IMG/VR virus record: IMGVR_UViG_3300025137_000063
Span: 1-49,220 of that record
Direction: 5' to 3' (one strand)
Source of the DNA: a virus
DNA length: 49,220 nt
Shown: in pieces, positions 4,286-7,381 of the stretch
How positions within the stretch are numbered: the stretch's first letter is position 1
Layout: each line of letters starts with the position of its first letter
The notes under the pieces: model-generated
What the model saw: the letters and a program-made list of their open reading frames with translations, nothing else
What the model was told of the DNA's origin: nothing
Database searches by the model: none
Made by a program: the position numbers and the translations under genes

Positions 4286-4540
4286 ATGGCCACATACACA
4301 TTTAAAAATAAAGACACTGGTGATGTTGAAGAACATAAATTCTCCGTTCATAAACACACAGAATTTAAACAAAACAATCCACATCTCGAACAGATACACT
4401 TAACCTTTCCTGGTTTAGGTGATCTTGTTCGTATGGGCATGAAAGGTCCTGATGATGGATTTAGAGAAGTGTTATCAAAAATAAAAGAAAAGACAGGAGG
4501 CAGAAGAAATAATTTAGGTGATAAACTTTCGAGAAATTGA
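4286..4540 (+). CDS. Small conserved phage protein, FmdB-like N-terminus without cysteines
   Basis: 84 residues starting MATYTFKNKDTGD, the beta-hairpin start typical of small phage proteins distantly related to FmdB zinc ribbons. The CxxC pairs are absent here. A motif NNPHLEQ and a C-terminal GPDDGFREVLSKIKEK, a combination I recall in short proteins of many T4-like phages, support a real gene. Function unknown. About 44 bases without a visible signal separate it from phoH. Confidence 0.65.
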   Translation: MATYTFKNKDTGDVEEHKFSVHKHTEFKQNNPHLEQIHLTFPGLGDLVRMGMKGPDDGFREVLSKIKEKTGGRRNNLGDKLSRN

Positions 4541-5784: not shown

Positions 5785-6438
5785 ATGTTTGAGAGAATAT
5801 ATCATGAATTTCCCAGAATCAAGAGAACTACAAACGATAAGGGTATCCGAGTATACCAAACCCCGGAAGGTGGATCCTATCCTTCGGTCACAACGGTTAC
5901 AGGGTTATTGGCTAAAGAGGCAATTAAAAAATGGAGGGAAAGAGTTGGCAAAGAGGAAGCTGCCAGAATCTCCACAAAAGCCTCAAAAAGAGGAACTAGA
6001 ATACATACATTATGTGAAAAGTATCTCTCGAACATTGAACTCGACGAAACAAACTTTGATCTTGAAATGTGGGAATCAATCAAGCCACACTTGGATAGCA
6101 TAAATCAAATTCATGCGTTAGAGGATAAGTTATATTCTGATCATTTACAAATAGCTGGTACTGTAGATTGTGTAGCGGAATACAATGGTAAGTTGTCTGT
6201 TATAGATTTTAAGACATCATCTAAAGTTAAGAAGAGAGAGCATATACATGGTTATTTTATGCAGTGTTCAGCATATGCAGTTGCATTTGAAGAAATAACA
6301 AAAGTGCCTGTATCTAATTTAGTTATTATTATGACAGTTGCACACGAAGGTTGTGTTATATTTGAAGAAAAACGTGATGATTGGATTAATAAATTTATTG
6401 ATTTAAGAGAAACATATCGCAAAAGTTACGGTTGTTAA
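5785..6438 (+). CDS. PD-(D/E)XK exonuclease (RecB/Cas4-like)
   Basis: 217 residues. The nuclease core reads GTVDCV (D128), then VIDFKTS (D141, K143), followed by the QxxxY motif (Q160-Y164) of RecB/AddB-type exonucleases; H74 in an RGTRIH motif lies upstream. Enzymes of this family degrade or resect double-stranded DNA ends in recombination or host-DNA breakdown. It lies 6 bases after the M15 gene and directly before the tmRNA acceptor segment. The ATG at 5785 was chosen for the full N-terminus (IYHEFPRI); the 5789 frame is a shadow. Confidence 0.85.
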   Translation: MFERIYHEFPRIKRTTNDKGIRVYQTPEGGSYPSVTTVTGLLAKEAIKKWRERVGKEEAARISTKASKRGTRIHTLCEKYLSNIELDETNFDLEMWESIKPHLDSINQIHALEDKLYSDHLQIAGTVDCVAEYNGKLSVIDFKTSSKVKKREHIHGYFMQCSAYAVAFEEITKVPVSNLVIIMTVAHEGCVIFEEKRDDWINKFIDLRETYRKSYGC

Positions 6439-6459
6439 TTATTTCTAAATATGCGATAA

Positions 6460-6465
6460 TATAAT
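6460..6465 (+). promoter_or_regulatory. Possible -10 box (TATAAT) for the tmRNA transcript
   Basis: A perfect TATAAT lies in the short gap after the exonuclease gene. It would place a start near 6470-6473, close to where pairing of the tmRNA acceptor piece begins. I see no good -35 at the normal distance, so this is tentative; in A+T-rich DNA such a hexamer can occur by chance. Confidence 0.3.
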
Positions 6466-6468
6466 TAT

Positions 6469-6530
6469 GATCGTATGAAGTCGATTGAAAGCTGTTTCGG
6501 ACAGGGGTTCGATTCCCCTCACCTCCACCA
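6469..6530 (+). ncRNA. ssrA: tmRNA acceptor piece (3' part of a circularly permuted ssrA)
   Basis: The segment ends with an encoded CCA (6528-6530). The acceptor strand CACCTCC (6520-6526) pairs over 7 positions with GGGGGTG at 6986-6992, including the G3:U70-type wobble that specifies alanine charging. The T arm is AGGGG-TTCGATT-CCCCT (6503-6519). TTTCGGAC just before it is the conserved tmRNA block. GATCGT (6469-6474) and ATTG (6484-6487) can pair with ACGATC (7028-7033) and CAAT (7010-7013), giving helix 2. The 5' limit is uncertain. The 3' half standing upstream of the 5' half is the permuted order known from alphaproteobacteria. Confidence 0.9.
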
Positions 6531-6542
6531 ATTAGGAAAGTT

Positions 6543-6983
6543 ATGTACGAGTATAATTGTAAAATAGTAAAAGTAGTTGATGGTGATACAGTCGATGTTG
6601 ATATTGATCTTGGTTTTGGAGTATGGATGAGAAATGAAAGAGTACGTCTTTATGGTATAGATGCTCCTGAATCCAGAACAAGTGATAAAGAAGAAAAAAA
6701 ATATGGTCTTGCCTCGAAAAAGTTTGTGCAAGATACTATGCCTTTGGATTCTACTCAAACACTTAGAACCATGAAAGATAGTGTTGGAAAGTACGGTAGA
6801 ATCTTAGGTGTATTTGTATTACCTGATTATGACAATCAAAGGCTTGACGAAATGATGATAAAGAATCATCATGCGGTAGATTATCACGGTCAATCCAAAG
6901 ATGATATAAAAGAACAACATCTAAAGAATAGAGAACATGTAGTTATACTCGAAGATGTATTAAATCCTAATTATATAAGATAA
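6543..6983 (+). CDS. Staphylococcal-nuclease-like (SNase) protein lying inside the permuted tmRNA gene
   Basis: 146 residues with the SNase layout: VVDGDTVDVDID at 11-22 (D13, D15), then R35, D40 and E43 in RVRLYGIDAPES, and R86 in KYGRILG. These match the metal-binding and catalytic arginine/glutamate positions of thermonuclease. There is no signal peptide, so it probably acts in the cytoplasm on DNA or RNA. The ATG at 6543 follows AGGAAAG. The ORF starts 12 bases after the tmRNA CCA end and its TAA ends 2 bases before the mature tmRNA 5' base. It therefore fills the segment that tmRNA maturation removes. Confidence 0.9.
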   Translation: MYEYNCKIVKVVDGDTVDVDIDLGFGVWMRNERVRLYGIDAPESRTSDKEEKKYGLASKKFVQDTMPLDSTQTLRTMKDSVGKYGRILGVFVLPDYDNQRLDEMMIKNHHAVDYHGQSKDDIKEQHLKNREHVVILEDVLNPNYIR

Positions 6984-6985
6984 AT

Positions 6986-7165
6986 GGGGGTGTCCTGGTT
7001 TCGACGGGGCAATGAATAGAAAGATGGACGATCCGGTAGGCGACGACCGTTAATCGAGCAACCGAAGTAAATGCAAACGACGAAGTCTTTGCCTTAGCAG
7101 CTTAATAGCTAAGTGGGGTTTTCCAGGTCTTCCTTATTACCCAAAGACCTGGGCCAACTTAGGAG
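6986..7165 (+). ncRNA. ssrA: tmRNA coding piece with proteolysis tag ANDEVFALAA (5' part of permuted ssrA)
   Basis: Starts GGGGGTG (acceptor 5' strand) followed by TGGTTTCGACGGGG, the conserved tmRNA D-loop-like region. The resume codon GCA at 7073 opens a tag reading A-N-D-E-V-F-A-L-A-A then TAA (7073-7105), close to the E. coli tag ANDENYALAA. Downstream, CTAAGT (7109-7114) pairs with ACTTAG (7157-7162) as helix 5. Inside it, the 9-bp stem 7123-7131/7144-7152 and GGGG 7115-7118 with CCC 7140-7142 form a pseudoknot. A PK1-like CGGT/ACCG lies before the tag. The role is ribosome rescue and tagging of stalled products. The 3' limit is approximate. Confidence 0.92.
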
Positions 7166-7169
7166 AGAT

Positions 7170-7268
7170 ATGCGAGATAAAATTTGTCAGATTATTCATA
7201 CAATGGCAATAAGTACAATAGCAACTAGTACTACCTTAATTATGTTGCGCACGTATGGAATACTTTAA
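7170..7268 (+). CDS. Micro-ORF A, 32 aa hydrophobic peptide, sister of the next one
   Basis: Begins 8 bases after helix 5 of the tmRNA with AGGAGAG two bases before the ATG. The 32-residue product is hydrophobic (isoleucine-, threonine- and serine-rich) and ends MLRTYGIL. It aligns without gaps to the neighbouring micro-ORF: 14 of 32 positions are identical (including K4, C6, S15, A18, M25, L26, G30, I31, L32). The same length, the same ribosome site and the conserved ending argue that it is a real gene. It may be a small membrane peptide; function unknown. Confidence 0.6.
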   Translation: MRDKICQIIHTMAISTIATSTTLIMLRTYGIL

Positions 7269-7282
7269 TATTAGGAGAGAAT

Positions 7283-7381
7283 ATGTATCAGAAAGTTTGT
7301 TTGACTATTAGTGCATTTTCAGTTTCTTGTGTAGCTATTAATACAAGTATCATTATGTTGAAAACTACTGGTATTCTATGA
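7283..7381 (+). CDS. Micro-ORF B, 32 aa hydrophobic peptide, paralogue of micro-ORF A
   Basis: Exactly as long as the preceding micro-ORF, 14 bases downstream, with the same AGGAGAG ribosome site. The product (start MYQKVCL, end MLKTTGIL) shares K4, C6 and the ML-x-T-x-GIL ending with its sister, and differs mostly by conservative changes (I/V, R/K, S/T). A single membrane-spanning stretch of about 22 residues is plausible. The stop overlaps the start of gene 33 (ATGA), so it may couple translation of that gene. This looks like a tandem duplication; function unknown. Confidence 0.6.
   Translation: MYQKVCLTISAFSVSCVAINTSIIMLKTTGIL

Follow-up and report, generated by a model that had tools for sequence, protein, structure and literature searches.

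The analysed window, a 49,220-nt (49-kb) fragment of a T4-like marine phage (IMG/VR record IMGVR_UViG_3300025137_000063), carries a circularly permuted gene for tmRNA, the RNA that rescues stalled ribosomes, in which the intervening segment (ITS) between the two reversed halves, normally a short discarded spacer, is occupied by a complete and conserved SNase-family nuclease gene. Apart from the tmRNA locus, the window encodes an exonuclease, PhoH, a PD-(D/E)XK nuclease, a gp33-like coactivator, gp59, gp32, and baseplate and terminase proteins, and its relatives are Kyanoviridae such as the phages Mosig and Melnitz. The layout and its conservation are established at the sequence level, whereas the proposed competition between SNase translation and tmRNA maturation is inferred.

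Identification of the permuted tmRNA and its nested SNase gene

The Rfam permuted tmRNA model (RF04321 tmRNA_permuted) matched positions 6469-7105 over its full length (1-213 of 213; 114.1 bits against a cut-off of 47; E = 1.3e-21), with the ITS as one large insertion. The T arm (AGGGG-TTCGATT-CCCCT), the 3' acceptor strand CACCUCC followed by ACCA ending at 6530, and the 5' G at 6986 were all present, and the 7-bp alanine acceptor stem (GGGGGUG/CACCUCC) carried the G3:U70 pair and A73, with an encoded CCA. The tag reading frame contained the resume motif AGTAAATGCAAACGACGA and a hydrophobic end. ARAGORN returned no tmRNA on the native sequence but, when the SNase ORF alone was removed in silico, called a permuted tmRNA with the tag ANDEVFALAA and two terminal stops, a direct test that the two halves make one gene and that the insert is what hides it. 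The observation made in an earlier note, namely a tmRNA 3' half standing before the 5' half with a 441-nt SNase ORF in the 455-nt spacer, starting 12 nt after CCA and stopping 2 nt before the mature 5' end, was therefore confirmed at every coordinate (Table 1).

The nested ORF was assigned to the SNase family by a Pfam profile search (PF00565; E = 2.6e-12; 47.6 bits against a gathering score of 21) and by PHROG (phrog_452, endonuclease; E = 2e-34). Aligned to staphylococcal nuclease, it retained the counterparts of the catalytic residues D21, R35, D40, E43 and R87, although nuclease activity was not assayed. The note had described the SNase message as near-leaderless; this is not so in function, as the 12-nt leader holds a conserved Shine-Dalgarno-like AGGA(AA). 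A sigma70-like promoter candidate (TTGTTA-17-GATAAT) lies just before the tmRNA 3' half. The promoter scan did not exceed shuffled sequences by number of matches, and the candidate is supported only by its position and conservation: TTGTTA-17-GATAAT in locus L007, TTGTTA-17-TACAAT in L015 and TTGACG-18-TATAAT in L040 (relatives with the same layout, see below), and TTGACA-17-TATAAT before the short-ITS tmRNA of locus L271, with no such -10 element in the alleles lacking tmRNA. Two tandem 32-aa peptides with similar ends (LIMLRTYGIL and IIMLKTTGIL; 7171-7266 and 7283-7381) directly follow the tmRNA, and the ribosome-binding site of the first (GGAG) lies in the tmRNA 3' end.

Table 1. Coordinates of the features of the tmRNA-SNase locus in the window.
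Position	Strand	Feature	Basis
6432..6460	+	sigma70-like promoter candidate	consensus match
6469..6530	+	tmRNA 3' half (acceptor piece): strand of the long-range P2 helix, T arm, 3' acceptor strand, CCA	RF04321 alignment; pairs kept through double changes
6531..6985	+	ITS, 455 nt	sequence; 453-455 nt in relatives
6531..6557	+	5' arm of the ITS-terminal stem, containing the AGGA ribosome-binding site and the SNase AUG	predicted duplex energy against a synonymous-codon null; pairing probability in the whole precursor
6943..6972	+	3' arm of the ITS-terminal stem, inside the SNase C-terminal codons	predicted duplex energy
6534..6540	+	Shine-Dalgarno-like AGGAAAG in the ITS leader	sequence; TTAGGAAA core conserved in L007, L015, L016 and L040
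6543..6983	+	SNase gene (146 aa; 441 nt, ATG to TAA), whole within the ITS	PF00565; phrog_452; dN/dS
6986..7165	+	tmRNA 5' half (coding piece): 5' acceptor strand, D-loop-like UGGUUUCGAC, tag reading frame, 3' pseudoknot and hairpin	RF04321 to 7105; conserved pseudoknot pairs in the alignment; 3' boundary by comparison only
7073..7105	+	tag ORF ANDEVFALAA plus stop	ARAGORN on the shortened sequence

Distribution and conservation of the layout

The same layout was found in six other IMG/VR contigs from five metagenomes (3300025120_012822, 3300001589_002082, 3300001589_005382, 3300025168_000484, 3300030108_005738 and 3300029448_000001; loci L005, L006, L007, L008, L015, L040), with SNase amino acid identities to the window of 99-100% for L005-L008, 88% for L015 and 60% for L040, the last on a 144-kb contig. 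L005-L008 are close relatives and may not be independent samples. Spacer lengths were 455, 455, 454 and 453 nt in the four sequence types, and the distance from CCA to AUG was always 12 nt. Three more contigs (L265/L347, L266/L350, L346) end inside the SNase gene after the first junction. L008, L015 and L040 (as L088) also matched RF04321 over its full length.

Both genes are under purifying selection. SNase dN/dS was 0.034 between the window and L007 and 0.088 between the window and L015, within 0.03-0.09 between layout carriers and 0.03-0.12 over all allele pairs tested. In an alignment of four SNase-ITS and four short-ITS tmRNAs, 14 of 35 predicted pairs kept pairing through changes on both sides, among them T-stem and long-range P2 pairs. 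The tags read ANDEVFALAA in the window, ANDDVFALAA in L007, ANDDYFALAA in L015 and ANDEEYLLAA in L040.

The locus between the PD-(D/E)XK gene and gp33 showed four states among relatives: a short-ITS tmRNA without SNase (L271, ITS of 62 nt; Mosig and Melnitz); a tmRNA with SNase in the ITS (window, L005-L008, L015, and L040 with the same upstream gene); SNase without any tmRNA (L009, L010, L011, L012, L014, L018); and SNase beside one half only (5' half in L013, 4443-4600; 3' half in L016, 1-46). The last two contigs come from one sample and may be true recombinants or assembly chimeras; their flanks matched tmRNA-less and tmRNA-bearing relatives as those of a recombinant would, but no near-identical parents were among the sequences compared, so this test did not separate the two possibilities. 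The short-ITS state in more distant relatives suggests, by inference, that the tmRNA was there first and that SNase entered it. As to whether SNase entered ITSs once or twice, the SNase tree grouped L040 with SNases from other contexts (L215, L217; 99/97) away from the window clade, yet the first 60 nt of the L040 SNase and its ITS leader look window-like, so that recombination inside the gene is equally possible.

Similar arrangements were also sought elsewhere. A scan of 84,980 bacterial species genomes for spacers of 430-460 nt gave 11 hits, of which nine are standard tmRNAs with a chance CTCCACCA upstream and the other two (L354, L358) also lack an upstream T arm, so that none is a permuted tmRNA with a gene. 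Spacers of 376-436 nt in viral contigs gave one hit, also a standard tmRNA. Junction-pattern hits L344, L348 and L349 are an ordinary tRNA followed by a membrane-protein gene, and apparent 1.1-kb ITSs in L141 and L206 were pattern-search artefacts of standard tmRNAs.

The ITS-terminal stem

In ordinary short-ITS phage tmRNAs, including those of the isolates Mosig and Melnitz, the two ends of the ITS pair next to the acceptor stem (for example -17.5 kcal/mol in L119 and -15.9 kcal/mol in Mosig). In the window, L007 and L015, the first 27 nt of the ITS, which hold the SNase ribosome-binding site and AUG, pair with the last 40 or so nt, which are SNase C-terminal codons, at -15.7, -15.7 and -18.5 kcal/mol, respectively. 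Only 0.25, 0.35 and 0.20% of 2000 synonymous recodings reached these values (null for the window, -7.6±2.1 kcal/mol). In contrast, three SNase alleles at the same locus without tmRNA gave -6.4 to -7.4 kcal/mol (not significant), the 5'-half-only L013 gave -7.7, and the 3'-half-only L016 an intermediate -13.0. In the whole precursor the stem was predicted with probability near 1 for most positions, together with most of the acceptor stem. The nested gene has thus adapted its two ends to the RNA. The stem is not universal, as L040 lacked it in the windows tested, but there the SNase frame runs 27 nt into the tmRNA (stop at L040 4466-4468, tmRNA 5' G at 4442), and cleavage by RNase P would therefore remove its stop codon.

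Other reading frames in the ITSs of phage tmRNAs

Protein-coding ITSs were not confined to SNase. Among sampled permuted phage tmRNAs, a group with ITSs of 101-170 nt shared an ORF with the motif YYTPxEWSRSIGWGTVPDERN (EWSR family; L112, L114, L118, L155, L195), and a search for it found 25 loci (L363-L387; e.g. L363:2929-3231). All 13 of these loci that were scanned matched RF04321 (73-106 bits), as did L114 and L118. Pairwise codon-position differences in the motif, summed over 13 loci, were 174/210/788, the mark of a protein-coding frame. The frame reads on about 50-60 nt into the tmRNA 5' half, and its start codon was not evident because it is open through the tmRNA 3' half. The family is unrelated to SNase and had no match in Pfam, PHROG or the phage record collection. 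A manA RNA motif (RF01745) occurs 1.1-1.3 kb downstream of three of these tmRNAs (L363:4479-4691, L368:2614-2818, L379:4340-4554).

Smaller candidates were also detected. In the cultured phage Melnitz (MZ577096.1; L213:16078-16260), an unannotated ORF (MFKWLSKTRLVVITRDYFRERNRKADAKIPKYLSGTRSVYD...) preceded by GGAGAAG fills the 142-nt ITS of ssrA and runs 42 nt into the tmRNA, and L342 has a similar small ORF (MFNWIKNYFDKWVKKEEERQIRYLSGKGK) in its ITS. In L127 (minus strand, tmRNA 6680-7050), a 170-nt ITS holds a 52-aa ORF that starts 10 nt after CCA and stops 1 nt before the tmRNA 5' G, with AAGGA inside the ITS-terminal stem; as this is a single case, chance is not excluded. A glutamine riboswitch aptamer (RF01739) lies right after the Melnitz tmRNA (L213:16399-16447), as published, whereas none was found in the window.

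Interpretation of the nested arrangement

The reading favoured here, with fairly good confidence, is a functional, circularly permuted, two-piece tmRNA gene of a Kyanoviridae-like marine phage whose removed ITS is a protein gene. In this view, one transcript, probably starting near 6467 from a promoter immediately upstream, carries the acceptor piece, the SNase message and the coding piece in that order. As the precursor folds, the ITS ends would pair as in ordinary short-ITS precursors and hide the SNase start. Host enzymes (RNase P at 6985/6986; RNase Z or exonucleases after 6530), as proposed for two-piece tmRNAs (PMC3985003), would then release the tmRNA pieces, and the SNase message would end at its own stop codon or, in the L040 lineage, lose it. 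While ribosomes translate the SNase frame, the stem, and in L040 the acceptor stem, could not form, so that a given transcript would yield SNase or mature to tmRNA at any one time, with maturation ending SNase synthesis. The sequence data demonstrate both RNA halves, the nested gene, its conservation, the stem (in sequence and thermodynamic prediction) and the absence of that stem without tmRNA, while the promoter, the cleavage sites, translation from the precursor and mutual exclusion are inferred. There are no RNA data: neither processing into two base-paired pieces nor SNase translation has been observed. Upstream read-through could also supply SNase message. SNase could help degrade host DNA, and the tmRNA could rescue ribosomes on decaying messages late in infection, both being general inferences from the families.

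The interpretation given in the earlier note, a permuted phage tmRNA with a real SNase gene in its spacer, was supported. The note further proposed that tmRNA maturation would also release or destroy the SNase message, so that the two may be linked; this link is still an inference, but it now rests on two additional supports, the long-range stem that occludes the SNase start and the lineage in which the SNase ORF overlaps the tmRNA. Of the outcomes that the note had said would speak against it, a missing covariance-model match was ruled out by the single full-length hit to both halves, and no unpermuted tmRNA was found in the window; the cut ends were not mapped by RACE.

An alternative, considered possible but unlikely, is that the ITS is only a tolerant insertion site, where a nuclease gene landed in a spacer that is cut out anyway, both products being made independently and the stem being kept simply for precursor folding. 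SNase is indeed a free gene at many places in T4-like marine phages, alleles without tmRNA are common at this locus, so the two are separable, two SNase subclades sit in ITSs, which fits repeated landing, and the stem is a general feature of permuted phage tmRNAs. However, the ribosome-binding site and start codon are themselves inside the stem, C-terminal codons complement them only in alleles with both tmRNA halves, and the overlap in L040 makes full independence hard to picture. Decay of the tmRNA halves around a useful SNase gene is very unlikely: although tmRNA-less alleles and two single-half contigs exist, all core elements are intact in the window, L007, L015 and L040, the helices covary, the acceptor stem and G3:U70 are invariant in that set, and the tag keeps its ANDxxxxLAA form through synonymous and conservative changes. 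An assembly error or chance juxtaposition is effectively refuted: although all carriers found are metagenome contigs and L013 and L016 could be chimeras, the identical layout occurs in seven contigs of four sequence types from several metagenomes, with constant spacing and purifying selection on both genes.

A broader reading, held only tentatively and rated less likely than not, is that permuted phage tmRNAs are a recurrent class of dual genes, their ITS having repeatedly become coding space (SNase; the EWSR family in at least a dozen confirmed tmRNA loci; candidate small ORFs in Melnitz, L342 and L127), with expression of the nested protein set by tmRNA maturation. Where the ORF overlaps the tmRNA, RNase P would turn the message into a stop-less mRNA that the same tmRNA would then rescue and tag, a built-in feedback.

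The locus shows that a structured RNA gene and a protein gene can occupy one transcript, with the message lying inside the part that RNA maturation discards. It gives a concrete, testable case of competition between translation and RNA processing, and offers a reason for the permuted order, which creates an expendable, transcribed slot. It also exposes an annotation blind spot, since the standard tool misses such genes and ITS reading frames are unannotated even in an isolated phage (Melnitz).

Comparison with known systems

The large 2025 tmRNA survey (PMC11915505) lists 11,946 permuted sequences and mentions a tRNA gene in one ITS and a repeat in the longest, but no mention of a protein gene was found there or in other searches of the open-access literature, which left out subscription papers and preprints; the note likewise knew of no such case. 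Two-piece tmRNAs (RF04321; RF01849 alpha_tmRNA; Keiler 2000; Sharkady and Williams 2004; PMC11915505) share with the locus the 3' half first, then the ITS and the 5' half, the acceptor stem with G3:U70, the T arm, the tag, the long-range helix and an ITS removed in maturation, thought to involve RNase P and tRNase Z (PMC3985003). The locus remains a permuted tmRNA, but it lacks the short non-coding ITS typical of permuted tmRNAs: its ITS is 455 nt long instead of the 2-170 nt of the others in the phage sample and is a protein gene that makes the tmRNA invisible to ARAGORN.

The tmRNAs of Methylophilales phage Melnitz and Pelagibacter phage Mosig (PMC9004378) occupy the same genomic place, with the PD-(D/E)XK nuclease upstream and the late-transcription coactivator gp33 downstream, but have ITSs of 142 and 44 nt, respectively, and in Melnitz the SNase gene lies about 34 kb away, next to baseplate genes. 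In group I intron tmRNA genes with LAGLIDADG homing endonuclease genes (PMC11915505), a nuclease gene is also nested in a segment removed from a tmRNA precursor, but that segment is a self-splicing intron in the T loop of a standard tmRNA. Here the T loop is intact, no intron family hit was found in the window and there is no intron or splicing, the segment is the permutation spacer, and the nuclease is an SNase, not a homing enzyme. Finally, the permuted tmRNA with a tRNA-Ala gene in its ITS (GCA-2688965, reported in PMC11915505) resembles the locus in that the ITS carries another gene, but it is a single case, and that gene is an RNA gene rather than a protein-coding one.
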